Below are positions 13,196 to 58,095 of a stretch of DNA of 64,000 nt, in pieces. The stretch is from Patulibacter minatonensis DSM 18081 (GTDB lineage Bacteria > Actinomycetota > Thermoleophilia > Solirubrobacterales > Solirubrobacteraceae). Each line of letters starts with the position of its first letter. Positions within the stretch are counted from its first letter, which is position 1. Position numbers and translations under genes: made by a program. The stretch spans positions 1,775,252 through 1,839,251 of the forward strand of contig NZ_KI912613.1 in the NCBI RefSeq assembly GCF_000519325.1, written 5' to 3'. The notes beneath the pieces were generated by a model. It saw nothing but the letters and a program-made list of their open reading frames with translations, was not told where the DNA came from and made no database searches.

Positions 13196-13199
<4 letters not shown>
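12786..13199 (+). CDS. ureB: Urease beta subunit
   Basis: 137 residues from GTG 12786. [15 protein letters not shown], then [18 protein letters not shown] and [20 protein letters not shown], are the conserved jelly-roll segments of the beta chain. The C-terminal 30 residues ([20 protein letters not shown] and on) extend past the usual core, as in some actinobacteria. The stop overlaps the ureC start (ATGA), so subunits are translationally coupled. Confidence 0.97.
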
Positions 13200-14905
<1,706 letters not shown>

Positions 14906-34235: not shown

Positions 34236-34499
34236 ATGAGCTACGTCATCACCCAGTCCTGCTGCAACGACGCGATCTGCGTCGCCGTCTGCCCGGTGGA
34301 CTGCATCCACCCGACCCCCGACGAGCCGGGGTACGCGACGACCGACCAGCTCTACATCGACCCCACCCTCTGCGTCGACTGCAACGCCTGCGCCGAGGTC
34401 TGTCCCGTCTCCGCGATCCGACGCGAGCAGGAGCTCCCCGACGCGCTGCGGCCGTACGCCGGCATCAACGCCGGGTACTTCGCGGCGGCCCGGGCGTGA
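34236..34499 (+). CDS. 7Fe-type ferredoxin (copy 1)
   Basis: 87 residues from ATG 34236. Cysteines at 9, 15, 19 and 23 ([15 protein letters not shown]) and at 46, 49, 52 and 56 ([13 protein letters not shown]) form a 3Fe-4S/4Fe-4S pair as in FdxA-like ferredoxins. There is an extra C10. It is a soluble electron carrier. The stop overlaps the start of an FprA-type reductase (GTGA), so reductase and ferredoxin are co-produced, probably to feed the P450 or Rieske oxygenase encoded at 53-56 kb. Confidence 0.92.
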
Positions 34500-35887
34500 G
34501 CGCCGCGCTCCGGGTGGCCGTGGTCGGGGCGGGCCCCGCCGGCGCCTACGCCGCCGAGCGACTGGTCGAACGTCCGGGCGTCGAGGTCGAGCTGTTCGAA
34601 CGGCTCCCCACACCCTGGGGGCTCGTCCGCGCGGGCGTCGCACCGGACCATCCCGAGACGAAGGACGTGACGCAGGCCTTCCAGTGGACCGCGTCGGACC
34701 GCGCCGTGCGCATGCACCTGAACGTCGAGGTCGGCCGGGACGTCTCCGCGGAGGACCTCGCCGCCCACCATCACGCGGTGATCTACACGGTCGGCGCGCC
34801 CACCGATCGCCGGCTCGGCATCCCGGGCGAGGACCTCCCGGGCAGCCACGCGTCGACGGCGCTGGTCGCCTGGTACAACGGCCACCCGGGGGCGCGCGAC
34901 CTGGGCATCGACCTCTCGGGAACGCGCGCGGTCGTCGTCGGCAACGGCAACGTGGCGCTCGACGTCGCGCGGATCCTCACGCTCCCCGTCGAGGTCCTGC
35001 GCCGCACCGACATCGCCGACCACGCCCTCGACGTCCTCGGCGACAGCGCGGTCGAGGAGGTCGTCGTGCTCGGCCGTCGCGGGGCGGCGCAGGCCGCCTT
35101 CACCACCCCCGAGCTCCTGGCGCTGAGCCACCTGCCCGGCGTCGACGTCCGGGTCGACGCCGAACCCTCGGAGCTCGACGACGGGTCGCGGGCCACGACG
35201 CCCGGGCGGCCGCCGGACTACGCGGTGGGGCTGAAGCTCGACCTCCTCCGGGCGCTGTCGGTCCGCGAGCCCACCGGCGCGCCGCGGCGGATCGTGCTCC
35301 GGTTCCTGGCGTCCCCGGTCGAACTCGTCGGCGACACCGCCGTCGAGCGGCTCCGGATCGCGCGCAACGAGCTCGTGCAGGACGAGGACGGACGGGTCGG
35401 CGCGCAGCCCACGGACCGGATCGACGAGCTCGAGGCCGGCCTGGTGCTGCGCTCCATCGGCTACCGAGGCGAGGCCCTGCCGGGCGTCCCGTTCGATCCC
35501 ACCGCCGGCCGGATCCCGAACGACCGCGGTGCCGTCGTCGACCCGGCGACCGGCAAGACGGTCCCGGGGCTCTTCACCGCGGGGTGGATCAAGCGCGGGC
35601 CGACCGGCGTCATCGGCACGAACAAGGTCTGCGCGCGGGAGACCGTCGATCGCCTGCTGGCGGACCACGCGGCCGGTCGACTGCCGGCTCCGCGCGGGGG
35701 CCGGCGGGAGCTCGACGAGCTGCTGCGCCGCCAGGTGCCCGAGGCCCTCGGACTGGACCACTGGCGCCGCCTCGACGAGCACGAGCGGCGGACCGGCGCA
35801 CCGCAGGGCCGCCCGCGGGTGAAGGTCACCGAGGTCGACGAGATGCTCCGCGTGGCGCACGCCCCCGAGTCGGCGGCGTCCCGGTGA
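34496..35887 (+). CDS. FprA-type ferredoxin-NADP+ reductase (copy 2)
   Basis: 463 residues from GTG 34496. [18 protein letters not shown] (FAD), [18 protein letters not shown] (NADPH), [19 protein letters not shown] and [18 protein letters not shown] are all intact. It is co-translated with ferredoxin 1 upstream and with the racemase downstream (GTGA at both ends). The three reductase copies in the window share the same motifs but differ in their middle part. Confidence 0.92.
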
Positions 35888-37023
35888 GCACCGCCACGCC
35901 GCCCATCGGCGACGCCGTCGGCGGGCCGCTCCACGGCGTTCGGATCCTGGAGGTCGGCGGGATCGGCCCGAACCCCTTCGCGGGCATGATGTTCGCCGAC
36001 ATGGGTGCCGACGTCCTGCGGCTGGACCGCCCGGGCGCGGAGGGTGCCCCCGGGCGCCGTTTCGACGTCCCGACGCGGGGGAGGGCCACCGTCGGCATCG
36101 ACCTGCGCGATCCGGAGGGGCAGGACACTGTCCTCGGGTTGGCGGCGGAGGCCGACGCCCTGATCGAGGGATTCCGGCCGGGGGTCATGGAGCGGCTCGG
36201 TCTCGGCCCCGACGCGGTCCGGGAACGCAACCCCCGTCTGGTCTACGGCCGGATGACGGGCTACGGGCAGGACGGTCCACTCGCCCGCACGGCGGGACAC
36301 GACATCAACTACATCTCGCTGACCGGGGCGCTCGGCTCCTTCGCACGCGAGGGCGAGCGACCCCTCGCGCCGATGAACGTCGTCGGCGACTACGGGGGCG
36401 GGGCGATGATGCTCGCGTTCGGTGTCGTCTGCGGCATCCTCGAGGCCCGCACGTCGGGCCACGGGCAGGTCGTCGACGCCGCGATGGTCGACGGCTCCGC
36501 GCTCCTGACCGCGATGATGCACGGCTTCCGCGCCGACGGCTCGTGGCACGACCGCGCCGGGACGAACCTCCTGGACTCCGGTGCGCACTTCTACGAGACC
36601 TACGAGACCGCGGACGGCCGCCACGTCGCCGTCGGCCCGCTCGAGCCGCAGTTCTACGTCCGGCTGCTCGAGGTCCTGGGCATCGACCCCGCCGACGCAC
36701 CCCAGGACGACCGCTCCCGGTGGCCCGAGCTGAAGGCGCGCTTCGCCGCGGTCTTCCGCACGAGGACCCGGGACGAGTGGGTCGCACTGCTCGAGGGCGA
36801 GGACGCCTGCGCGACGGGCGTCCTGACGATGGCCGAAGCGCCGGGGCACCCACACCTGGAGTCCCGAGGAGTGTTCGTCGAGGTCGACGGCGTCCTGCAG
36901 CCCCAGGCCGCGCCCCGCTTCAGCCGGACGCCGGGGGCGGCCCGCCCCCGCCCACGAGACCTCGGTGCCGCACTCGCGGCCTGGGGCTCGGCGGGTGAAC
37001 GGCTCCGTCGACCGCGGAGCTGA
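35884..37023 (+). CDS. mcr: Alpha-methylacyl-CoA racemase
   Basis: 379 residues from GTG 35884, CaiB/BaiF fold. Residues equivalent to the mycobacterial MCR catalytic set are present: H-D in [14 protein letters not shown] in [13 protein letters not shown], and E in [15 protein letters not shown]. The C-terminal [22 protein letters not shown] and PRFSRTPGA also follow MCR closely. It interconverts 2R- and 2S-methylacyl-CoA thioesters, needed before beta-oxidation of branched lipids such as sterol side chains or isoprenoids. It is third in the ferredoxin/reductase operon. Confidence 0.88.
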
Positions 37024-37187: not shown

Positions 37188-37934
37188 ATGAACGTGACGA
37201 TGCAACGACTTGCGGCCTGGTGTGGGCCGGTCGCGATGATCGGGTTCCTCATCGGCTGGGGAGCCCTCTGCGGCTTCATCCCGATGCCCTCCTCGAGCGA
37301 GTCCGCGCTCGAGGTCCAGCGGATGTACCTCGATCGCCAGACGCTGATCCAGGTCGGGCTGGTCGTGACGATGCTCGCCTCGGCCCTGATCGCCCCGCTG
37401 ATCGCCGGCGTGTTCGTCCACCTGCGCCGCATCGAGGGCCAGAACGCGGTCCTCGCCTACACGCAGCTCGGGCTCGGCATGCTGCTGCCGATCCTCTTCA
37501 TCATCCCGTGCTTCCTCCTGCAGGTCGCAGCGTTCCGCCCGGAGCGCGACGCGGACCTCGTGCAGGCGTTCAACGATGCGGGGATGCTCCCGTTCGTCGG
37601 CGGGTTCTACGCCACGCTGCTCCAGGTGATCGTCGTGGGCATCGCGATCCTGCGCGACCGCGAGCAGCAGATCTTCCCCCGGTGGGTCGGCTGGTTCAAC
37701 CTCTGGGTCGCGCTGGCGATGATGCCCGACGTCCTCATCTTCTTCTTCAAGACGGGGCCGTTCTCGTGGCGCGGGATCGCGCCCTTCTACATCATCGTCG
37801 TGGCCTTCTGCGCCTGGTTCTTCATCATGGGCTGGGCCGTCCATCGCGCTGCCACCCGGCAGGCCGAAGAGGCCGCTCGCGCGGTCGCCCCGGACCGCGA
37901 GCACCAGCCCGAGCCCGAGCCCGTCCTCGCGTGA
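37188..37934 (+). CDS. Multi-pass membrane protein, unknown
   Basis: 248 residues from ATG 37188 with AGGAG seven bases upstream. It has six likely membrane helices (for example GPVAMIGFLIGWGALCGFI, GLGMLLPILFIIPCFLL, MMPDVLIFFFKT and FYIIVVAFCAWFFIMGW) and a polar, Glu-rich C-terminus. I recognise no family. It starts a three-gene set with cytochrome oxidase subunit III- and IV-like proteins, so it may belong to a respiratory or electron-transfer membrane assembly. A copy of the repeated palindrome lies in its promoter region. Confidence 0.8.
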   Translation: MNVTMQRLAAWCGPVAMIGFLIGWGALCGFIPMPSSSESALEVQRMYLDRQTLIQVGLVVTMLASALIAPLIAGVFVHLRRIEGQNAVLAYTQLGLGMLLPILFIIPCFLLQVAAFRPERDADLVQAFNDAGMLPFVGGFYATLLQVIVVGIAILRDREQQIFPRWVGWFNLWVALAMMPDVLIFFFKTGPFSWRGIAPFYIIVVAFCAWFFIMGWAVHRAATRQAEEAARAVAPDREHQPEPEPVLA

Positions 37935-37972
37935 GCGCCCCTCCCGCTCGAGCCTCCAGAAAGCCTGATCGC

Positions 37973-38587
37973 ATGTCGACGACGATCGATGAACGCCCCG
38001 CGGCCACCGCGCCCCCGGTGGTGCCCGACGCCCGCACCCACGTCCCCGGCGAGATCGGGATCTGGGTCTTCATCCTGCTCGACCTGGCGACGTTCGCCGC
38101 GCTCTTCGCGGCGTTCCTCCACGATCGCGGGGGTGACGCCGAGCTGTACGCGGCGTCGCAGGCGAAGCTCTCCCAGGACTTCGGCGCACTGAACACCCTG
38201 ATCCTGCTGACGAGCTCCCTGCTCGTCGTCGCCGGCGTGCGGGGGATCAGGGCCGGTCGGCTGCGGGAGGCCCGGCTCGCGCTCTACGGCGCCGTCGCGT
38301 GCGCGCTGGCGTTCTGCGTCGTCAAGGTCTTCGAGTGGGGCGGCAAGTTCGCCGACGACATCACCCCCACGACGAACGGGTTCTGGGAGTACTACTTCGG
38401 ACTCACCGGGATCCACCTCTTCCACCTGTTGATCGGCCTCGGCGTGCTCACGTTCATGCTGCGCCGGACCCGGAAGGCGCAGCTCACCGGAGCCGACGTC
38501 GCGAACGTCGAGACCGGGGCGTCGTTCTGGCACATGGTCGATCTGATCTGGATCGTCATCTTCCCCCTCCTCTACCTGGCGCACTGA
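37973..38587 (+). CDS. Cytochrome c oxidase subunit III-like protein
   Basis: 204 residues from ATG 37973. VPGEIGIWVFILLDLATFAALFAAFL, GLTGIHLFHLLIGLGVLTFML and GASFWHMVDLIWIVIFPLLYL are the conserved helices of the heme-copper oxidase subunit III/NorE family. It has five predicted helices, fewer than canonical subunit III. No catalytic subunit I or II is in the window, so it is an orphan subunit, like NorE-type accessory proteins. The stop overlaps the next start (TGATG). Confidence 0.88.
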   Translation: MSTTIDERPAATAPPVVPDARTHVPGEIGIWVFILLDLATFAALFAAFLHDRGGDAELYAASQAKLSQDFGALNTLILLTSSLLVVAGVRGIRAGRLREARLALYGAVACALAFCVVKVFEWGGKFADDITPTTNGFWEYYFGLTGIHLFHLLIGLGVLTFMLRRTRKAQLTGADVANVETGASFWHMVDLIWIVIFPLLYLAH

Positions 38588-38880
38588 TGCACAGCTCCGA
38601 CACGAAGCTCCTCACCCCGCGGATCCTGGTGGTCTGGGGCGTCCTCGTCCTGGCCACCGTGGTCTCCTGGTACCTCGGCACCGACCACGGGTTCTCCTCC
38701 AAGGACGGCCAGTCCGTCGCCACGAGCATCGTGCTCGTCGTCGCCTTCGTGAAGATCCGCTTCATCGGATCGGACTTCATGGAGCTCCGGCACGCACCGG
38801 CAGGCCTGCGCCGGGCGTTCGACGCGTGGGTCGTCGTCGTCTGCCTCACGCTCGTCGGCTTCTACCTCGGCGGGCAGTAG
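38587..38880 (+). CDS. Prokaryotic cytochrome c oxidase subunit IV-like protein
   Basis: 97 residues with three membrane helices (ILVVWGVLVLATVVSWYLG, VATSIVLVVAFVKIRFIG, AWVVVVCLTLVGFYLGG). VAFVKIRFIGSDFMELRHAP is the hallmark of the small COX4_pro proteins, which sit beside subunit III-like proteins. It is translationally coupled to the subunit III-like gene. It probably helps assemble or stabilise that membrane protein rather than catalyse. Confidence 0.88.
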   Translation: MHSSDTKLLTPRILVVWGVLVLATVVSWYLGTDHGFSSKDGQSVATSIVLVVAFVKIRFIGSDFMELRHAPAGLRRAFDAWVVVVCLTLVGFYLGGQ

Positions 38881-40590: not shown

Positions 40591-41064
40591 TCAGCGCTGC
40601 GCCCGAGATCCGTGGGCGACCGAGCGGGACGAGCCGTCGGTCGACCAGGTGCCCGAGCACCGGGCGCAGACACGTCCGTCGGCGCTCAGGATCTCCGCCT
40701 CGATGAACGCCAGCTGGCGGCCGCGCCTGGAGACCTCGGCCGAGCAGCGCAACGGCGGGAACGCCGGGCGGTGGTAGTTGATCGTGAGCGTGGCGGTCGC
40801 GGGCAGGGCATCCGGCGTCGAGCTCGACATCGCGGTCAGCCCCATGACGTGATCGGCGATCGCCCCGACCAGCCCACCGTGCAGCGCCCCGTTCGGGTTC
40901 GTCGCCCACGGCGAGCGCTCCATCACGAGTTCGACCCGGCCGGGCAGGAACGAGGTGCATCGGGCGTGCAGCGCGTGGGACGTCGTCAGCGCGTTCGCCC
41001 ACTCCAACCACTCCTCCTCGCTCCCGCCGAACGGTGCTGCGGCCTGCGGTGTGCGATCCGTCAT
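40591..41064 (-). CDS. PaaI-like hotdog thioesterase
   Basis: 157 residues. NPNGALHGGLVGAIADHVMGL is the active-site helix region of PaaI-type hotdog thioesterases, and TATLTINYHRPAFPP is the following conserved strand. It would hydrolyse an acyl- or aryl-CoA thioester, possibly relieving trapped CoA during catabolism. Its promoter, shared with the divergent aldehyde dehydrogenase operon, has a copy of the repeated palindrome about 57 bases upstream. Confidence 0.85.
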   Translation of the reverse strand: MTDRTPQAAAPFGGSEEEWLEWANALTTSHALHARCTSFLPGRVELVMERSPWATNPNGALHGGLVGAIADHVMGLTAMSSSTPDALPATATLTINYHRPAFPPLRCSAEVSRRGRQLAFIEAEILSADGRVCARCSGTWSTDGSSRSVAHGSRAQR

Positions 41065-41120
41065 CTGGGCTCCTGGGGCATCGGGGGGTGGGCGCCGCCC
41101 CGCGGCGTGCCCGTAGGAAT

Positions 41121-41139
41121 AGCAAACGTCCGTTCACGA
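41121..41139 (-). promoter_or_regulatory. TetR-type repeat site 6 (thioesterase)
   Basis: In gene orientation CGTGAACGGACGTTTGCT. It overlaps a second inverted repeat, TCACG-AA-CGTGA at 41134-41145. It faces the thioesterase. Confidence 0.65.
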
Positions 41140-41252
41140 ACGTGAGTCCGGCTTCACCGGCGCGGCCGTGACACGGCGGCTGTTCCTCGCTTCGGTAGGG
41201 GGAAGTGGGAGACTGCTGCTCGGTGGTCACACGGTGCCGGTGCGCGACGCTA

Positions 41253-41271
41253 TTGTGAACGTACGGTTCTT
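41253..41271 (+). promoter_or_regulatory. TetR-type repeat site 7 (aldehyde dehydrogenase operon)
   Basis: TTGTGAACGTACGGTTCTT, one of the closest copies to the consensus, 48 bases before the ATG at 41320. Confidence 0.75.
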
Positions 41272-41319
41272 CCGTGCGGGGCGGTGTGCCTTTCGCGGGA
41301 GCGGTCACGAGGAGCGAGC

Positions 41320-42885
41320 ATGGCGACGACGGCGAAGACGACGACGGGTCCTGGGGGCGACGCGGAGGACCGCATCGTGGTGCGCTGTCCCGCCGACGGC
41401 CACCTCGTCGGCGAGGTCCCCGTGCAGACGACCGACGAGGTCCGTGCGATCGCCGACCGGCTGCGCGCCGCGCAGCCCGCGTGGGAGGCCCTCGGGTTCG
41501 CGGGCCGGGCTCGCTGGCTCGGGCTGTGGCGCGACTGGTTCCTCGACAACGGCGAGCGCCTTGCGGGGATCGTGCAGGAGGAGACCGGCAAGTCGTGGAA
41601 CGACGCGGGCGTCGAGGCTCCTACGGCGGTCGAGGTCATCAACTACTACGCCGAGCACGGCGAGGCGTTCCTGCGCACCGAGCACCCGAAGCCGCACACG
41701 AAGGCGATGGCGATCAAGCAGCTGTCGCTCGAGTACAGCCCGCACCGCCTCGTCGGGGTGATCTCCCCGTGGAACGCCCCCGTGGGCGTCCCGGCGTTCG
41801 ACGTCCCCGGCGCGCTGATGGCCGGGTCCGCCGTGCTCACGAAGTCGTCCGAGTGGACGCCCCTCGCCTGGGAGGAGGTCGTCCGCGGGTGGAACGAGGA
41901 CCTCGGCGCACCGGCGGTCCTCGGCTCGGTGACCGGCGCCGGGGAGACCGGCGCGGCGGTCGTGGACGTCGTGGACTTCCTCCAGTTCACCGGCTCGGCC
42001 CACACCGGCCGCCGGATCGCGGCGCGGTGCGGCGAGCGCCTGATCCCCTGCAGCCTGGAGCTCGGCGGCAAGGACGCGATGATCGTCCTCGCCGACGCGG
42101 ACCTCGAGCGCGCCGCCAGCGGTGCGGTCTGGGGAGGCTTCTTCAACGCCGGCCAGATCTGCGTGTCGGTCGAGCGCCTCTACGTCGAGGACGCCGTGCA
42201 CGACGCGTTCGTCGCCCTCGTGACCGAGAAGGTCGCCGCCCTGCGCGTCGGCATGGAGACGGGGCAGGACATCGCGTACGACTACGGGGCGATGGCCAAC
42301 GAGGCGCAGATCGACATCGTCGACCGGCACGTCGCCGACGCGCGGGACAAGGGCGCCCGCGTCCTCGCCGGTGGAGCGCGACGTCCCGGCCAGGGGCTCT
42401 TCTACGAGCCGACGGTGCTCGTCGACGTCGACCACGGGATGGACTGCATGCGCGAGGAGACGTTCGGGCCGACGCTGCCGATCATGCGCGTCGCCGACGA
42501 GGCCGAGGCGATCGCCCGGGCCAACGACTCGGAGTACGGCCTCTCGGCGTCGGTGTGGACGACGGACCGCGCACGCGGCGAACGCGTCGCCTCCGCACTG
42601 AACGCCGGCGGGGTCAACATCAACGACATGTACATCAACATGTTCCAGATGCCTCTCCCGCAGGGCGGCTGGGGCGCCTCGGGCATCGGGGGCCGACTCG
42701 GTGGTGCGGCGGGGATCCGCAAGTTCTGCCGCGAGCGCGCCGTCGTCCGCGCCCGCGTCGCACCGAAGACCGAGATCCAGTGGTACCCCGCCTCGAACCG
42801 CAGCGCCGGGATCCAAGGTCGCGCGACCCGCTTCCTCGGCGCCCGGGACTGGCGCCGGAAGCTCGGCCTGAAGCCGCGCCCGTGA
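41320..42885 (+). CDS. Aldehyde dehydrogenase (NAD(P)+), copy 1
   Basis: 521 residues from ATG 41320 with GAGGAG six bases upstream. GVISPWNAPVGVPAFDVPGAL is the substrate/NAD region, FTGSAHTGRRIAARCG the nucleotide loop, LELGGKDAMIVLADADLERA holds the general-base Glu, FFNAGQICVSVERLYV the catalytic Cys, and EETFGPTLPIMRV the second Glu. It oxidises an aldehyde to an acid. It is the first gene of an operon with a CoA transferase and an AtuA-like protein, overlapping the next gene by GTGA. Confidence 0.93.
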   Translation: MATTAKTTTGPGGDAEDRIVVRCPADGHLVGEVPVQTTDEVRAIADRLRAAQPAWEALGFAGRARWLGLWRDWFLDNGERLAGIVQEETGKSWNDAGVEAPTAVEVINYYAEHGEAFLRTEHPKPHTKAMAIKQLSLEYSPHRLVGVISPWNAPVGVPAFDVPGALMAGSAVLTKSSEWTPLAWEEVVRGWNEDLGAPAVLGSVTGAGETGAAVVDVVDFLQFTGSAHTGRRIAARCGERLIPCSLELGGKDAMIVLADADLERAASGAVWGGFFNAGQICVSVERLYVEDAVHDAFVALVTEKVAALRVGMETGQDIAYDYGAMANEAQIDIVDRHVADARDKGARVLAGGARRPGQGLFYEPTVLVDVDHGMDCMREETFGPTLPIMRVADEAEAIARANDSEYGLSASVWTTDRARGERVASALNAGGVNINDMYINMFQMPLPQGGWGASGIGGRLGGAAGIRKFCRERAVVRARVAPKTEIQWYPASNRSAGIQGRATRFLGARDWRRKLGLKPRP

Positions 42886-44399
42886 GCGTCACCGAGAGCA
42901 CGCTCGCGCGGACGATCCGCGACCGTGTCGCGACCCCGCTGCAGGACGACCGATCGATCGACCTGCACGCCGAGCTCGACCGCGTCCTCGCGGACGTCGG
43001 GTTCGCCGCCGCGGACGCCGGCGGAGCGGTCGAGTTCACCGGCCGCGACCCGATCGCCGCCAGCCGGCTCGCCCTGGCGTCGGCCGCCGGGCTGGGCCTC
43101 GTCGCGAAGTCCGTCGCGGTCGCCCGGCTGTGGCGCACGCGCGGCGGCGACGGGCAGGACCTCGCGATCGACCTGCGCTCCGCGCCCCGCAGGCTCTGCC
43201 CCTTCTACGAGGGCAGGTGGGAACGGATGAACGGCTACCCGGCCGGCTCCGACTTCGACCTCGCCACCGCGCTGCACTTCACCTCGCTCTATCGCTGCGC
43301 CGACGGCGGATGGGTCCTGCCGCAGGCGCAGTACCCGAAGCTCCGCCGCCGCGCGCTGAAGCTCCTCGGCGTCCCCGACGACCGCGACGCCGTCGCCGGC
43401 GCGATCGGGCGCTGGAACGCCGCCGACCTCGAGCGGGCCGGGGCAGAGGCGGGCGTCGTCATGCCGCTCGTCCGCAGTCCCGAGGCGTTCCTCGCGGAGG
43501 AGCAGTTCACCGGCCACCTCGCCGACCTGCCGTTGATCGAGCTGGAGCGCACCGGCGACGCCGACCCGGTCCCCCTGCCGTCCGGCCCCGAGCAGCCGTT
43601 CTCGGGGATCCGGGCGCTCGGCATGGGCCACGTGATCGCCGGCGGCGGCATCGGCCGGACGCTCGCGCTGCACGGCGCCGACGTGCTGAACGTCTGGCGC
43701 CCGCTGGAGTACGAGAGCCCCGGCGCGTACCACTCGGCCCAGTTCGGGGTGCGGTCGACGACGCTCTCCACGAAGCACGACACGGGCCGCGACGCCCTGG
43801 AGCGCCTCGCGTCGCGCGCCGACGTCTTCTACGCCAACCGTCGACCCGCGATGCTCGAGAAGGTCGGGTTCACCGCCGAGCAGCTCGCGGAGCGGCACCC
43901 CGGGATCGTCCACGCGAGCGTCAGCGTCCACGGGCGCACGGGCCCATGGGCCGACCGCCCGGGGTTCGACCAGACCGCCGGGGCCGTCTCCGGCATCTTC
44001 GACGTCGAGGGCCGGGACGGCGTCCCCGCGATCCCGCTGATCACGGTCGTCAACGACTGGATCGTGCCGTGGTTGGCGACGGTGGGCATCGTCTCCGCGC
44101 TCGAGCGCCGCGCCGTCGAGGGAGGGTCGTGGCGGGTCCACGTCTCGCTCACGCGCGTCGCGCTCTGGATCCTCGGCCTGGGCGTCTTCGACCGCGACTA
44201 CGTGGCCGAGACCGCCGGCGTCGGCGACGAGCACGCCTACCTCCCACCCGAGCTCCTGCACCACGACGGGCCGATGGGCCGGTACCAGGGCGTGACCGAC
44301 CAGGTCCGCATGTCCCGCACCCCCGGCCACCACCGCCACGGCCTGCTGCCGATGGGCTCGGCCCCGCCGCGCTGGCTCGACGACCCGGAGTCCCCATGA
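42882..44399 (+). CDS. CaiB/BaiF family CoA transferase, two-part
   Basis: 505 residues from GTG 42882, longer than the usual 400. The first 150 residues include DGQDLAIDLRSAPRRLCPFYEGRWER, resembling a degenerate N-terminal lobe. The second part carries FSGIRALGMGHVIAGGGIGRTLALHGADVLNV and GIVHASVSVHGRTGPWADRPGFDQTAGAVSG, typical of CaiB-type type III CoA transferases, with the D-Q-T-A region near the family catalytic Asp. It probably moves CoA between acids, activating the product of the aldehyde dehydrogenase. It overlaps the AtuA gene by ATGA. Confidence 0.8.
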   Translation: MSVTESTLARTIRDRVATPLQDDRSIDLHAELDRVLADVGFAAADAGGAVEFTGRDPIAASRLALASAAGLGLVAKSVAVARLWRTRGGDGQDLAIDLRSAPRRLCPFYEGRWERMNGYPAGSDFDLATALHFTSLYRCADGGWVLPQAQYPKLRRRALKLLGVPDDRDAVAGAIGRWNAADLERAGAEAGVVMPLVRSPEAFLAEEQFTGHLADLPLIELERTGDADPVPLPSGPEQPFSGIRALGMGHVIAGGGIGRTLALHGADVLNVWRPLEYESPGAYHSAQFGVRSTTLSTKHDTGRDALERLASRADVFYANRRPAMLEKVGFTAEQLAERHPGIVHASVSVHGRTGPWADRPGFDQTAGAVSGIFDVEGRDGVPAIPLITVVNDWIVPWLATVGIVSALERRAVEGGSWRVHVSLTRVALWILGLGVFDRDYVAETAGVGDEHAYLPPELLHHDGPMGRYQGVTDQVRMSRTPGHHRHGLLPMGSAPPRWLDDPESP

Positions 44400-46201
44400 G
44401 CACCCGCCCGATCATCATCGCCAACTGCTCCGGCTACTCCGGCGACCGGCGCTCCGCCCTCCGCGAGGCACTCGACGGCGGTCCCGTCGACGTCATCGTC
44501 GGCGACTACCTCGCGGAGATCACGCTCGCGGGGATGGCGGCGCGTCGCGTGCGCGGCCGCGGCGAGGGGTACAGCACGGAGCTGCTCGAGCAGCTGACCG
44601 GGTGCCTCGACGAGCTCGTCGAGCGCGGGGTCAAGCTCGTCGTCAACGCGGGCGGCTTCGACCCGGCAGGGCTGGCCGAACGACTGCGCGAGCTCCATTC
44701 GGGCGCCCGCCCGCTGCGGGTCGCGCACCTCGAGGGCGACGACCTCACCGGCCGGCTCGACGACCTGCAGGCCCGCGGTCACGAGCTGCCGAGCATGGAC
44801 ACGGGGCGGCCGTTCTCGTCCTGGGGCCACGACGCCCTGAGCGCCAACGCGTACCTCGGTGCGTGGGGGATAGCCGACGCACTGGCCGGCGGCGCGGACG
44901 TCGTGATCTGCCCGCGGGTGACCGACGCGTCCCTGGTCGCCGGGCCCGCCGCCTGGTGGCACGACTGGGCGACGGAGGACTGGGATCGCCTCGCGGGAGC
45001 GATCGTGGCCGGCCACGTCATCGAGTGCGGGCCGCAGGCCTGCGGCGGCAACTTCTCCGGGTTCACGCACGTCCCGGGGATGGTCCACCCGGGGTTCCCG
45101 ATCGCCGAGATCGAGGCCGACGGCACCGCGGTCATCACGAAGCACCCGGGCACCGGCGGCGCGGTGACCACCGACACCGTGAGCGCACAGCTGCTCTACG
45201 AGATCCAGGGCCCGATCTACCTGAACCCCGACGTCACGGTCGACCTCCGCGACGTCGAGCTGACGACGGTCGGCGCCGACCGCGTCCGCGTCGCGGGGGC
45301 GCGGGGCACGCCGCCGCCGGCGACCACGAAGGTCGCGATCACGGCGATCATCGGCTGGGAGAACGCGTTCTCCGGCTACCTCTGCGGCCTCGACATCGAC
45401 GCGAAGGCGGCGCTCGTCGAGGCCCAGGCCCGCGACGTCCTGGCCGGCAGCCCGGTCGAGCTCGCGCGGGTCGACCGGATCGGCTCGGCGGAGGAGGATC
45501 CGTCGTCGATCGAGGCCGCGACCGTCGGCCTGCGCTTCGTCGGCCGCGCCGCGACCGCCGATCCGCTCAAGCCAGGAGCGTTCTTCCACCGGGTCCACGG
45601 CACGATCCTGTCGAGCATCCCCGGCTTCCACGCCGACGGCTCGTCAGGCCGGGCGACCAGGCCGAGCCCGCTGATCGAGTACTGGCCGGCGCTCGTCCCG
45701 GTCGCCGAGCTCGAGCCCGTCGTGGTCCACGACGGCGGGGAGCGCATGCCGGTGCGGACCGTCCCGACCGCGACGCCCCCGGTCGTCGCCGACGACGAGG
45801 GGCCTGCCGCCGACGCGGCCGATCCGGGACCGCTGACGCGCGTACCGCTCGGCGCGCTCGTGCACGCCCGGGCGGGGGACAAGGGCGGCAACTCGAACCT
45901 CGGCTTCTGGACCGGCCCCGAGGCGTGGGAGTGGCTGCGCGGTTTCCTCACCGCGGACCGACTCCGCGAGCTCTACCCCGAGGCCGCCGGCCTGCTGCTG
46001 ACCCGCCACGAGCTCCCGCACCTGCGCGCGGTGCACTTCGTCGTCCACGGGAACCTCGGGACGGGGTGCTCCAGCAACGGCCGCCTCGACGCCCTCGGGA
46101 AGTCCGTGGCGGAGTACGTGCGAGCCCGGCACGTCGACGCGCCGGAGGCCCTGATCGGCTCGCACCTCCGCGGAGCCGAGGTCGCGGGCCCGGCGATCTG
46201 A
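44396..46201 (+). CDS. AtuA-like protein (acyclic terpene utilisation)
   Basis: 601 residues from ATG 44396. IIIANCSGYSGDRRSALRE and VDVIVGDYLAEITLAGMAARR open the AtuA/DUF1446 domain, with VKLVVNAGGFDPAGLAERL, DVVICPRVTDASLVAGPA and ECGPQACGGNFSGF. The C-terminal 110 residues (VPLGALVHARAGDKGGNSNLG and GNLGTGCSSNGRLDALGKS) form the separate ferredoxin-like domain often fused to it. AtuA is needed for growth on citronellol-like terpenes in Pseudomonas, though its reaction is uncertain. The other atu genes (carboxylase AtuC/F) are not here, so another branched substrate is possible. Confidence 0.85.
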   Translation: MSTRPIIIANCSGYSGDRRSALREALDGGPVDVIVGDYLAEITLAGMAARRVRGRGEGYSTELLEQLTGCLDELVERGVKLVVNAGGFDPAGLAERLRELHSGARPLRVAHLEGDDLTGRLDDLQARGHELPSMDTGRPFSSWGHDALSANAYLGAWGIADALAGGADVVICPRVTDASLVAGPAAWWHDWATEDWDRLAGAIVAGHVIECGPQACGGNFSGFTHVPGMVHPGFPIAEIEADGTAVITKHPGTGGAVTTDTVSAQLLYEIQGPIYLNPDVTVDLRDVELTTVGADRVRVAGARGTPPPATTKVAITAIIGWENAFSGYLCGLDIDAKAALVEAQARDVLAGSPVELARVDRIGSAEEDPSSIEAATVGLRFVGRAATADPLKPGAFFHRVHGTILSSIPGFHADGSSGRATRPSPLIEYWPALVPVAELEPVVVHDGGERMPVRTVPTATPPVVADDEGPAADAADPGPLTRVPLGALVHARAGDKGGNSNLGFWTGPEAWEWLRGFLTADRLRELYPEAAGLLLTRHELPHLRAVHFVVHGNLGTGCSSNGRLDALGKSVAEYVRARHVDAPEALIGSHLRGAEVAGPAI

Positions 46202-47786: not shown

Positions 47787-48122
47787 ATGTCCTACGTCAT
47801 CACCGCACCGTGCATCAACACGCGCGACGCGTCGTGTGTCGAGGTGTGTCCCGTCGACTGCATCCATCCGGCTCCGGGTGAGCCGGGACACGAGACCGCC
47901 GAGCAGCTCTTCATCGATCCGGAGGAGTGCATCGGCTGCGACGCGTGCGTCGAGGTCTGTCCCGTCGGGGCGCCGTGGCCGATCGAGGACGTCCCGGCCG
48001 AGCACCGGGACTTCGTGGGGATCGCCGAGGCGTACTACGCCGCCGCCGCAGCGGACGGCGGTGCGGGAGTCTCCGCGGCGGGGGTGGCGGCGAGTCCCGC
48101 CAGCACGAAGCGGGCGACGTAG
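47787..48122 (+). CDS. 7Fe-type ferredoxin (copy 2) with Ala-rich tail
   Basis: 111 residues from ATG 47787 with GGAGGA upstream. Cysteines at 9, 17, 21 and 25 ([13 protein letters not shown]) and a CIGCDACVEVCP set give the two-cluster pattern. Compared with copy 1 it has a 25-residue low-complexity C-terminal tail (AAAAADGGAGVSAAGVAA). The last 88 bases overlap, on the opposite strand, the end of the TetR gene at 48035, so the tail may have arisen by read-through into that gene. It is divergent from reductase copy 3. Confidence 0.9.
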   Translation: MSYVITAPCINTRDASCVEVCPVDCIHPAPGEPGHETAEQLFIDPEECIGCDACVEVCPVGAPWPIEDVPAEHRDFVGIAEAYYAAAAADGGAGVSAAGVAASPASTKRAT

Positions 48123-48625
48123 TCGGGCAGGTCCTGCACGCCGACGGACTCCCGCGGCCAGTGCGCGAACGAGTTCAGCAGACCGAGTGCCGCGTGGGCC
48201 GCTGCGCGATGCTCGGCGCCGCCACACGTCGGCAGGACGTCGGCGATGGCCCGGGTCCAGCGCTCGAGGTACGCCTCCGTGCGCCGGAGGATGCGCCGGC
48301 GGGTGTCCGGATCGAGCGAGTGGTCCTCGCGGGTCCAGATGCTGGTGAGCTCCCGCTCGGCGAGCACGAACGTCGCGTGGGCGCGGACCATCCCGGCGAG
48401 TCGCGACTGGGCGTCGGGGCCCGATGTGACGGTCGCTGCGAGCAGGCCGTCCAGTGCCTCGTCGAACAGTGTGGCGAGGATCTCGTCCTTGCCCGCGAAG
48501 TGCCGGTAGATCGCGGGGCCGGTCACGCCCGCCCGTGTTCCGATGTCGTCCACGCGCACCGTGGAGAAGCCACGGGCATGGAAGAGCTCGGCGGCGGCCC
48601 GGAGGATTGCGCGGTCGGTCTCCAC
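48035..48625 (-). CDS. TetR family regulator (paralogue 1)
   Basis: 196 residues from GTG 48625 (AGGA eight bases upstream); longer frames would run through its own operator. The HTH is AILRAAAELFHARGFSTVRVDDIGTRAGVTGPAIYRHFAGKDEIL. The C-terminal domain (LTSIWTREDHSLDPDTRRR, YLERWTRAIADVL) resembles that of the second TetR at 58070. Its promoter carries palindrome site 10, so it is the best local candidate for autoregulation and control of the whole set of sites. The ligand, by family habit, would be a CoA thioester or lipid; this is inference. Confidence 0.88.
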   Translation of the reverse strand: METDRAILRAAAELFHARGFSTVRVDDIGTRAGVTGPAIYRHFAGKDEILATLFDEALDGLLAATVTSGPDAQSRLAGMVRAHATFVLAERELTSIWTREDHSLDPDTRRRILRRTEAYLERWTRAIADVLPTCGGAEHRAAAHAALGLLNSFAHWPRESVGVQDLPDYVARFVLAGLAATPAAETPAPPSAAAAA

Positions 48626-48660
48626 GACGCCGATCCTACTCGCTCCGGCGACGTCGTCGG

Positions 48661-48677
48661 GACGATCGTTCACTATT
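48661..48677 (-). promoter_or_regulatory. TetR-type repeat site 10 (TetR autoregulation)
   Basis: In gene orientation AATAGTGAACGATCGTC, 36 bases before the TetR start codon. Confidence 0.7.
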
Positions 48678-48725
48678 CGTTGCCTTGATTTTGCTCCTGC
48701 CGAAAGCATCTTCCGCGTCGAAGCA

Positions 48726-48743
48726 GACCGATCGTTCACTCTT
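48726..48743 (-). promoter_or_regulatory. TetR-type repeat site 11 (enoyl-CoA hydratase 1)
   Basis: The complementary strand reads AAGAGTGAACGATCGGTC. It lies 73 bases before the hydratase ATG at 48817, in the divergent region shared with site 10. Confidence 0.7.
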
Positions 48744-55325: not shown

Positions 55326-56558
55326 ATGCAGCGACACGTCCAGACCGAGTTGGCGGCGCGGTTCCTCGAATACATCAACGGCCACACGACGGACTACGCC
55401 GAGGCCGAGATGGAGATCCCGGCGAAGACGTACTTCGACCGCGAGTACAACGACGCCGAGCGCGAGAAGGTCTTCCGCACCCGCCCGATCGTCATCGCGC
55501 ACAGCTCGGAGCTCCCGAACGCGGACGACTTCATCACCCGCGACCTCATCGGCACGAGCGTGCTGCTCGTCCGGCAGCGCGACGGCCGGCTCAAGGCGTT
55601 CTCGAACGTCTGCCGCCACCGCGGCGCGAAGCTCGCGCTCGAGGAGAAGGGCTGCGCCCATCGCTTCAAGTGCCCGTACCACGCGTGGTCCTACAACGCC
55701 GACGGCACGCTGCGGTCGATCCCGTTCGGCGAGGGCTTCGGCGGCATCGACCGCTCCGAGTACGGACTGATCGAGCTCCCGGTCGACGAGCGCCACGGGA
55801 TGATCTGGGTCGTCCTCACGCCCGGCGCGCCGCTGGACATCGCCGACCAGATCGGTGAGGACATGGACGCCGAGCTTGCGTCGTTCGAGCTCGACCAGTA
55901 CACGCTGGTCCGCGAGGCGACCTACGACGAGCCGATGAACTGGAAGGTCGTGGCCGACGGGTTCATGGACCCGTACCACCTCCAGTTCGTGCACCCCAAG
56001 ACCGTCGGACCGTTCTTCAACACGAACGTCTACGCGCTCGACGTGCTCGGGCCCAACGCGGCCCGCCTCGTCGTCTCCCGCCGCAGCATGCACACGATCA
56101 AGGGGGAGGACCCCGCGACCGTCGACCTGATGCCCCACATCATCAGCAACTACATCCTGCTGCCGAACACGTTCGTCGCGGTCGAGCCGAACCACTTCGA
56201 GATCTGGACGATCTCGCCGCACGCCACCGACCCGGCCCGCTCGACGACGACGCTGCGCTTCCTGCTCCGCGAGCCGCCGAAGGACGAGAAGGAGGAGCAG
56301 TACCTGGAGAAGAACTGGAAGCTGCTCGTCCACACGGTGGTCGACGAGGACTGGGGCGTCGGACGTGCGCTGCAGCAGGGCCTGCCGCTGAGCAACATCG
56401 AGAAGACGCTCAGCGGTCGCAACGAGGCGCCGATCCAGTTCCTGCACGGCAAGCTGGCGGCGCTCGTCAGCGACGACGGCGACCTGGAGATGGCGCCGCC
56501 GGAAACGCCGTACCCCCGTCGCTACGGGAACCTCGTCGGCTCCGGCACCGAGGGATGA
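55326..56558 (+). CDS. Rieske non-heme iron oxygenase, alpha subunit
   Basis: 410 residues. The Rieske cluster is C96-R-H98 ... C116-P-Y-H119 (CRHRGAKL and CPYHAWSY). The mononuclear iron site is in NWKVVADGFMDPYHLQFVH with H218 and H223, and a third ligand Asp probably from the C-terminal DEDWGVGRA region. It would hydroxylate an organic substrate with O2. No beta subunit gene is next to it, and it does not look like KshA, so it is probably a monooxygenase or an alpha-only enzyme. Electrons likely come from a ferredoxin/FprA pair. Confidence 0.92.
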   Translation: MQRHVQTELAARFLEYINGHTTDYAEAEMEIPAKTYFDREYNDAEREKVFRTRPIVIAHSSELPNADDFITRDLIGTSVLLVRQRDGRLKAFSNVCRHRGAKLALEEKGCAHRFKCPYHAWSYNADGTLRSIPFGEGFGGIDRSEYGLIELPVDERHGMIWVVLTPGAPLDIADQIGEDMDAELASFELDQYTLVREATYDEPMNWKVVADGFMDPYHLQFVHPKTVGPFFNTNVYALDVLGPNAARLVVSRRSMHTIKGEDPATVDLMPHIISNYILLPNTFVAVEPNHFEIWTISPHATDPARSTTTLRFLLREPPKDEKEEQYLEKNWKLLVHTVVDEDWGVGRALQQGLPLSNIEKTLSGRNEAPIQFLHGKLAALVSDDGDLEMAPPETPYPRRYGNLVGSGTEG

Positions 56559-56586
56559 CGACCATGACCACGAGTGGAGAGCACGG

Positions 56587-58095
56587 ATGAACGTCGCCGA
56601 ACGGTGTGACTACTGGGCCCGCTGGATCCCGGAGCACGTCGCGATCCGCGAAGGATCCGAGGACCTGACCTGGGCCGCCATGGGCGACCGCGTCGCCCGC
56701 GTCGCCGGCGGGCTCGAGGCCCGGGGCGTCGAGCCCGGTGACCGCGTCGGCATCCTGGCCTCCAACAGCACCGCGTGGTGCGTGCTGGCCATCGCCGTCA
56801 TGCATCGCGGCGGCGTCGTGGTGCCGCTGAACATCCGCCTCGCACCGCCCGAGCTGCGCATGATCCTCGAGCACTCGGGATGCAGCGTCGTCGCGTACGA
56901 CGAGACGTTCGCCGGTCTCTACGAGGCCGCGAACGGGGACGACACGCACCGGACCACGGTCTCGCTCGACGACCGCGCCCCCGCCGGCGTCACGGTCTCG
57001 GAGCTCGCGACCGCCGACCCGTCACTGGCCGTCGACCGCGACCGCGACGACGCCGCCGTCCTCGGGTACACCTCCGGCACGACGGGACTGCCCAAGGGCG
57101 TCGTCCTCACGCACGCCAACATCGTGGCGTGCGCGCTGCAGACCGCCCACGCGGAGAGCTCGATGTTCGAGCGACGCACCCTGCTCTGCATCCCGCTCGC
57201 CTTCACGGGCGGCATCGTCAACAACTTCCTGTCCACGTACGTCGTCGGCGGGCTCCTGGTCCTCGAGCCGACGTTCGTCCCCGACCGCGTCGTCGAGCTG
57301 ATCGCCTCCGAGCGGATCACCACCTGGTTCGCCGTCCCGGTCATGTGGCAGGCCCTCGTCGGGACCGAGGCCTTCGCGGACGCCGATCTCTCGAGCCTGA
57401 CCACCGCGATCTGCGGCGGGGCGCCCGTCCCGGGCGCGCTGCTCGAGGCGTTCCACGCCAAGGGCGTCTCCGTACGACAGGCCTACGGGATCACCGAGGC
57501 CACCGGCAGCGCCTGCCTGCTGCCGGCCGCGTTCGCGCACCGCACCGCAGCTGCCGGCTTCCCGAACATCGACACCCAGATCCGGCTGCTCGACGACGAA
57601 GGCGTCGAGGTCCCGACCGGCGACGTCGGCGAGATCGTCATCAAGGGCCCGCAGGTCATGCGCGAGTACTGGAACGACCCGGCCGCCACGGAGGCCGCGC
57701 TGCCCGACGGCTGGCTCCGCACCGGAGACCTCGCGCGGTTCGACGAGGAGGGTCTCGTCTACGTCGTGGACCGCAAGAAGAGCATGTTCATCTCCGGCGG
57801 ACTCAACGTCTATCCCGCGGAGATCGAGCGGATCGTCGACAATCTCCCCGACGTGGCGGAGTGTGCGGCATTCGGACTGCAGCACGAGCGATGGGGCGAG
57901 GCCTGCGCCATCGTCGTGCGCGGCGCGTCCGGGGCGGTCGACGAGGACGCGCTGCTCGCCCACTGTCGCGAGCAGCTCGCGGACTACAAGGTCCCGCGGA
58001 CCGTCTTCCACACCGACGCCCCGCTCCCGCGTGGCATGTCCGGAAAGATCCTGAGGAACGAGATCCAAGATGCCTACGGCGAAGTCTCCGTCTGA
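56587..58095 (+). CDS. Acyl-CoA synthetase (AMP-forming ligase)
   Basis: 502 residues from ATG 56587. LGYTSGTTGLPKGVVLTHAN is the ATP-binding P-loop (A3), QAYGITEATG the A5 motif, DGWLRTGDLARFDEEG the A7 region and PLPRGMSGKILRNE holds the catalytic lysine (A10). It is of FadD type and would convert a fatty, steroidal or aromatic acid to its CoA thioester. The gene lies between the Rieske oxygenase and a TetR regulator, with the stop overlapping the TetR start by 26 bases. Confidence 0.92.
   Translation: MNVAERCDYWARWIPEHVAIREGSEDLTWAAMGDRVARVAGGLEARGVEPGDRVGILASNSTAWCVLAIAVMHRGGVVVPLNIRLAPPELRMILEHSGCSVVAYDETFAGLYEAANGDDTHRTTVSLDDRAPAGVTVSELATADPSLAVDRDRDDAAVLGYTSGTTGLPKGVVLTHANIVACALQTAHAESSMFERRTLLCIPLAFTGGIVNNFLSTYVVGGLLVLEPTFVPDRVVELIASERITTWFAVPVMWQALVGTEAFADADLSSLTTAICGGAPVPGALLEAFHAKGVSVRQAYGITEATGSACLLPAAFAHRTAAAGFPNIDTQIRLLDDEGVEVPTGDVGEIVIKGPQVMREYWNDPAATEAALPDGWLRTGDLARFDEEGLVYVVDRKKSMFISGGLNVYPAEIERIVDNLPDVAECAAFGLQHERWGEACAIVVRGASGAVDEDALLAHCREQLADYKVPRTVFHTDAPLPRGMSGKILRNEIQDAYGEVSV

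Follow-up and report, generated by a model that had tools for sequence, protein, structure and literature searches.

Introduction

AtuA-family proteins are usually read as carboxylation-dependent enzymes of terpene use. An AtuA gene in an operon without any carboxylase raises the question of what its protein acts upon and how the substrate is made. Such an operon is found in the stretch of the Patulibacter minatonensis DSM 18081 genome analyzed in this work (the window: 64 kb, positions 1775252-1839251 of a single-contig 5.52-Mb genome), where the genes of an aldehyde dehydrogenase (ALDH), of a protein with the class III coenzyme A (CoA) transferase fold (CoAT), and of an AtuA protein follow one another. 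We propose, tentatively and with somewhat less than even confidence, that the operon encodes an AtuA lyase module that works without a carboxylase, within a TetR-controlled catabolic island, where oxidation would supply the second carboxylate.

Results

The three genes overlap, as an earlier note made from the sequence of this DNA had claimed, by four bases at each junction (GTGA at 42882-42885 between ALDH and CoAT, ATGA at 44396-44399 between CoAT and AtuA), and their coordinates and domains agree with that description (Table 1). All three are open frames on one strand with a strong codon-position signal. The PF07287 score of AtuA, 531 bits, compares with a gathering score of 22.8, while the PF02515 match of CoAT is partial and falls in two stretches, the best of which spans part of the model only. 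The stretches ELGGK (residue 247) and GQICVS (residue 278), expected in an active ALDH, are both present in this one, which scores best among NCBIfam models with succinic semialdehyde dehydrogenase (455 bits, below the cut-off of 521).

The lack of a carboxylase beside this AtuA, also pointed out earlier, is real and unusual. Two AtuA genes are present in the genome, together with six Carboxyl_trans genes, none of the latter in the window, and no carboxylase is present among those window genes that were annotated (part of the total). AtuA-family proteins are common in actinobacteria: among 396 genomes sampled from the phylum, 70 have AtuA relatives, the best of them 44-50% identical. Of the 72 such places beyond the own genome, 40 (the top 38 plus two from lower down) were considered with their neighbourhoods, several of these stretches being cut by contig ends. 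A carboxyltransferase and a biotin carboxylase both lie within ~8 kb in 27 of the 40, and a CoAT of the operon's type in none. Seven of the 13 neighbourhoods without both carboxylase genes fall in one clade, and ten of the 13 (all except L087, L095 and L098, near contig ends) were inspected and have no common CoAT-like partner; in one AtuA neighbourhood, L074, a partial match to a canonical class III protein (~30%) lies upstream.

CoAT itself is rare. No other close relative was found in 296 genomes of the phylum (two matches at 35-38% besides its own) or in 399 of the class (two distant ones), and among 40 relatives a single one, G301, has a close CoAT (66%), with three more at 32-42%. A pattern-based search of 84,980 species genomes, able to find close relatives only, added two loci, L028 (71%) and L029 (58%). 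CoAT and AtuA are adjacent in three of the four genomes with a close CoAT (the window, L028 and L029), in the order CoAT-AtuA-ferredoxin in L028 and as overlapping AtuA-CoAT genes in L029, and no carboxylase stands beside the pair in either of these contigs (3.8 and 7.5 kb). In a tree of 47 AtuA proteins the window, L028 and L029 group together with support of 100/99 and a stem of 0.53, separately from the 28 carboxylase-labelled rows, in a bootstrap that had not settled and with the G301 AtuA fragment left out. CoAT is tied to one distinct AtuA clade, and the best-supported interpretation is a joint inheritance of the two, with no carboxylase next to them.

In the fourth genome, G301, the genes lie on two contigs. 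The first of them holds a Mce-type protein gene, an ALDH (63% identical to that of the window), two operator-like sites and another ALDH that overlaps CoAT by 4 bp, where the contig ends; the second starts within an AtuA 62% identical to that of the window and continues with a membrane protein-COX3-COX4 trio, found immediately ahead of the operon in the window and right after AtuA in G301. The full three-gene order, for which a search across genomes had been proposed, was found in the window only, and its parts recur, ALDH-CoAT in two genomes and CoAT-AtuA in three.

Some observations on wider relatives can be added. Full-length CoATs of 41-46% identity on rhizobial and Paraburkholderia plasmids mostly adjoin 3-hydroxyacyl-CoA dehydrogenase and terminal oxidase genes (oxidase sets at 13567-17433 in L114 and at 15.6-20.7 kb in L111 and L113), and that of Rhizobium Q54 has neither nearby. 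Genes of COX3 and COX4_pro type thus accompany CoAT or AtuA in these oxidase sets as well as in the trio of the window (37236-38880) and of the relative (L122, 1222-2883), with no COX1 seen in the trio. In Shinella a distant CoAT (32%; L119, 6688-9239) is part of a tricarballylate/aconitate cluster, where it overlaps a gene with a PrpF domain. A Streptomyces match (H14, 54.9% over 47% of CoAT) was part of a 772-residue mixed frame and was dropped. CoA transferases of other kinds also adjoin AtuA: a 3-oxoacid CoA transferase pair stands by a two-gene AtuA in Azospirillum, with no carboxylase in the stretch, and a CaiB-type enzyme by an AtuA-carboxylase set in Achromobacter; a CoA-transferase neighbour of AtuA is therefore no peculiarity of the operon described here.

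What AtuA could do is best suggested by its closest solved relative. The sole distinct chain that a profile of 21 AtuA proteins finds in the PDB at E up to 1 is 9erq_A (also 9evf; E 1.4e-8), whose entry bears the names 'Acyclic terpene utilization AtuA family protein' and 'Citramalate lyase, subunit A (cmlA)'; searches of PDB sequences with the single AtuA, or with three rows, gave no relative. The AlphaFold model of AtuA is weak (predicted local distance difference, pLDDT, 55.0; predicted template modelling score, pTM, 0.52), and with it 9evf_A is the only Foldseek match below 1e-3 (E 5.6e-11), aligned by VIA-align at Z 20.1 over 370 residues with a root mean square deviation of 9.7 A, the runner-up having Z 9.0. 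We accept this match because the profile search found the same chain; matches below the first rank mostly concern one common sub-domain and were disregarded. Membership of AtuA in a family of C-C lyases, as a relative of citramalate lyase subunit A, is the best-supported assignment that these comparisons suggest. Within the literature library searched, no fitting paper on CmlA with citramalate lyase or AtuA was found. The AtuA family (PF07287) was formerly named DUF1446. A DUF1446 gene of unknown function is reported in the methylaspartate gene cluster, in a source where the fate of citramalate is unclear (PMC4682846).

This relationship could also mean that AtuA acts, like citramalate lyase, on a free hydroxy acid, and that the operon belongs to a pathway of citramalate- or citrate-like acids instead of isoprenoids or rings. 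Two-gene AtuAs (~445 and ~105 residues) do adjoin a citrate:proton symporter in plasmids of Azospirillum and Mycetohabitans (L123, L128), which is fitting for a citramalate- or citrate-lyase-like role of these versions, and the Shinella CoAT mentioned above has tricarballylate and aconitate genes for neighbours. However, the symporter-linked AtuAs are separate versions only 37 and 34% identical to that of the window, and the Shinella CoAT (about 32%) is likewise distant. The island, moreover, has genes for Mce-like import, for beta-oxidation, for a Rieske oxygenase and for a P450, a set that suggests a larger, hydrophobic substrate, and we regard a free-acid pathway as quite improbable.

The anatomy of CoAT is peculiar. 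Its two modules are in reversed order, the C-terminal type first (~48-230) and the N-terminal type second (~231-430), such that, in comparison with the paralogue at 35884-37023, CoAT 48-178 aligns with canonical residues 151-280 and CoAT 231-393 with canonical residues 7-170. The second block is backed by profile comparison and by 34 distinct PDB sequences, the first being weaker (E 2e-4, pairwise search). At the position of the nucleophile, where the canonical paralogue and Rv3272 keep an aspartate, the window, L028 and L029 have arginine (R425), histidine and arginine in the second module and serine (S100), valine and threonine in the first. The AtuA-linked CoAT clade has thus lost the nucleophile aspartate that the known class III mechanism depends on (PMC9813914). 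A structure model of CoAT from three sequences (mean pLDDT 36.8) was not used, and no fitting paper on class III transferases with a permutation or a lost aspartate was found within the library searched.

These features bear on whether CoAT functions as a CoA transferase in the activation of a branched or dicarboxylic acid, with a nucleophile provided by another residue or by a partner. The 156-bit PF02515 match would agree with it, and so would the more distant CoATs, with aspartate (L025, L026) or glutamate (L119) at the first-module position, which suggest that the family was probably catalytic; lysine is found there in the rhizobial and Paraburkholderia proteins. Another class III enzyme, Mct, moves CoA within one dicarboxylate (PMC9813914). 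The residues of the window, L028 and L029 proteins argue in the opposite direction, as does the presence, in the same regulon, of a canonical CoA transferase (35884-37023) and of a FadD-type acyl-CoA ligase (56587-58095). The idea of 'CoA transfer instead of a ligase', put forward in the earlier note, finds little support for these reasons; plain CoA transfer is less likely, and we consider this reading unlikely as a whole. It is a little more conceivable, and still on the doubtful side, that CoAT and AtuA make up a two-protein lyase, in which the aspartate-less and module-reversed CoAT would bind or rearrange the CoA ester as the partner of its AtuA clade in a carboxylase-free cleavage of tertiary-alcohol CoA esters.

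The regulon just referred to is delimited by operator-like sites. With a matrix of 22 bases built on nine seed sites, taken by inspection of intergenic stretches, the window shows 14 sites of at least 16.0 bits, the next score down being 9.7, and the maxima of ten single-base shuffles of the window range from 10.2 to 15.6 bits. Nine of the 14 are the seeds, whose leave-one-out scores are 15.9-25.5. By the gene calls made here 13 are intergenic; the remaining one (54454) falls within the 5' portion of a P450 frame that has probably been called too long, and is upstream of the stretch with P450 homology. A weighted palindrome scan of the window gave mostly palindromes inside coding regions. The operator region said to be shared by the three genes is present, with two sites ahead of ALDH, one of which may serve the divergent thioesterase gene instead.

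Table 1. Position and content of the operon, of its operator-like sites and of other site-associated genes in the window
Feature	Position	Strand	Remarks
ALDH (aldehyde dehydrogenase)	41320-42885	+	PF00171, 409 bits
CoAT (class III CoA-transferase-fold protein, 505 aa)	42882-44399	+	GTG start; PF02515, 156 bits
AtuA with fused AtuA ferredoxin-like domain	44396-46201	+	PF07287, 531 bits; PF23544, 48 bits
Hotdog thioesterase (4HBT)	40591-41064	-	divergent from ALDH; operator region in common
Operator-like site	41119-41140		23.2 bits; between thioesterase (-) and ALDH (+)
Operator-like site	41252-41273		21.4 bits; 46 bp ahead of ALDH start
TetR-family regulator	48035-48739	-	operator-like sites 48655 and 48721 ahead of gene
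Ferredoxin, ferredoxin reductase-like flavoprotein, class III CoA transferase	34236-37023	+	sites 34053, 34152
Membrane protein, COX3-like and COX4_pro proteins	37236-38880	+	sites 37058, 37147
Rieske oxygenase and FadD-type acyl-CoA ligase	55326-58095	+	site 55285

The TetR-family protein is likely the regulon's own binding regulator, a choice that we infer; the enoyl-CoA hydratase gene near 48.7 kb, alongside it, is also behind one or more such sites, and a reductase and a ferredoxin near 47.6 kb are preceded by them. The strongest site of the window precedes the Rieske oxygenase gene, 28 bp after which the ligase gene starts, and since the ligase and the ordinary CoA transferase both stand behind operator sites, the island holds the genes of both activities. 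Where the Atu pathway has its citronellol/citronellal dehydrogenases and citronellyl-CoA dehydrogenase, the genes seen in the island are general acyl-CoA dehydrogenase and short-chain dehydrogenase/reductase genes only. Two further sites (20116, 20216) are flanked by a nitronate monooxygenase-like gene and a molybdopterin oxidoreductase and come before the Mce-like genes of 24-32 kb (a label taken from sequence starts and a MlaF-like ATPase), and import may therefore be part of the regulon. Elsewhere in the window an Rfam match to the 5' ureB small RNA (75.5 bits, 13346-13634, minus strand), opposite a urease-like frame (13196-14905), probably reflects conserved coding sequence rather than a true small RNA.

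The operator sites also bear on the possibility that the operon works in an ordinary route of the Atu/Liu type, where a carboxylase encoded elsewhere would make the substrate of the window's AtuA. Of the six Carboxyl_trans genes one set is directly beside the second, distant AtuA of the genome (AtuA2, 36% identical to the window's over residues 8-586), which is followed by a split biotin carboxylase (489 residues), a carrier-like protein (168), a carboxyltransferase (533) and an enoyl-CoA hydratase-like gene, and a site 26 bp ahead of the AtuA2 start reaches 15.4 bits by the window matrix, close to the 16.0 of the weakest window site. The AtuA2 region has, however, a motif of its own (GGTACCAAACGNNTGGTAGC-like, of TetR type), built from three of its five intergenic sites, which score 18.7 to 25.9 bits; the AtuA2 site gives 24.8 with it and the window 14.2 at most. 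Since the AtuA2 site fits this motif far better than the window matrix, we read the AtuA2-carboxylase operon and the window as two related but seemingly distinct regulons. The other carboxylase stretches fetched do not exceed 10.1 bits by the window matrix, AtuA2 is already paired with a carboxylase of its own, and none adjoins the pair in L028 or L029, though on short contigs. A carboxylase pair located elsewhere and co-regulated was named at the outset as evidence that would speak against an alternative route. A carboxylase set does exist elsewhere, but under what looks, by its sites, like a different operator, so that on the sequence this refutation does not seem to apply, and we consider its supply of the window's AtuA to be improbable. 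The AtuA2 region (L009/L010, 4175165-4204650 of the own genome) also holds acyl-CoA synthetase-like and hydantoinase/acetone-carboxylase-like genes, labelled by their sequence starts only.

Discussion

The proposal of a carboxylase-free lyase module could be put into steps as follows. ALDH would oxidize an aldehyde, most likely a semialdehyde, and so give an intermediate with a second carboxylate, from which the island's acyl-CoA dehydrogenases and enoyl-CoA hydratase could produce, by dehydrogenation and hydration, the mono-CoA ester of a tertiary beta-hydroxy dicarboxylic acid. AtuA would then cut the C-C bond beside the tertiary hydroxyl, to yield a 3-oxoacyl-CoA, and CoAT would be its dedicated partner, which either sets the CoA ester on the right carboxylate or holds the ester for AtuA. 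No biotin carboxylase would be needed, because the second carboxylate comes from oxidation instead of carboxylation. We infer the substrate, the order of the reactions, the role of CoAT and its physical contact with AtuA. The HsaABCD route of sterol-ring degradation is not supported by its marker, since the best match to HsaD in the genome has 88 bits, against a cut-off of 400.

The route is modelled, by analogy, on the ring-opening stage of anaerobic naphthalene degradation, where the thn operon has a CoA transferase listed together with two 'AtuA-like lyases', said there, on unpublished data, to cut a tertiary-hydroxy carboxy-CoA ester to 3-oxoazeloyl-CoA (PMC12016498). That transferase, ThnP, is an intramolecular enzyme of family I with demonstrated activity (PMC11659651).

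Several points weigh against our proposal. ThnP is not of class III like CoAT (PMC11659651), and the loss of the family nucleophile makes a CoA-moving role of CoAT doubtful. Citramalate lyase uses the free acid, so that a CoA ester is uncertain for the window's AtuA. The association with ALDH is also loose: in G301 the ALDH adjoining CoAT is another paralogue, 37% identical to that of the window, the 63% one being just upstream, and the L029 pair has no adjacent ALDH. The rhizobial (44-46%) and Paraburkholderia (41-42%) CoATs, finally, have no AtuA within ~12 kb.

The locus is evidence for the AtuA family as a more general kind of tertiary-alcohol lyase, which may be fed without carboxylation, and the operon, a rare one, suggests a variant way to cut branched carbon skeletons. 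With CoAT it also provides a case, open to testing, in which a CoA-transferase fold has lost its nucleophile and is yet tied to one lyase clade.

Among known systems, the Atu pathway of Pseudomonas, whose AtuA is of the same family (PF07287), resembles the window in its beta-oxidation-type genes and its transcriptional repressor, and differs from it in that the operon described here has CoAT and ALDH instead of a carboxylase; the window's AtuA forms its own clade within the sampled actinobacteria, a comparison that did not include the Pseudomonas sequence. CmlA (9erq, 9evf) shares with AtuA a significant profile match, the best fold match and the RxxD and LEC stretches, even if the sequence match is partial and the protein is named for citramalate; its small subunit is presumed to be separate, whereas that of the window is a fused domain. 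The class III CoA transferases and alpha-methylacyl-CoA racemases (Frc, SUGCT, Rv3272, MCR) align their N-terminal half with CoAT 231-430, CoAT being unlike them in its reversed module order, its replaced aspartate and a length greater by about 100 residues. The thn operon, with its two-gene lyase, belongs to anaerobic sulfate reducers and is likened to the window by description and not by sequence. It is, even so, similar in having a CoA transferase (ThnP) that adjoins AtuA-like lyases (ThnQ/ThnS), in the presence of acyl-CoA dehydrogenases and, within the portion of its gene table shown, in the absence of a carboxylase (PMC12016498).

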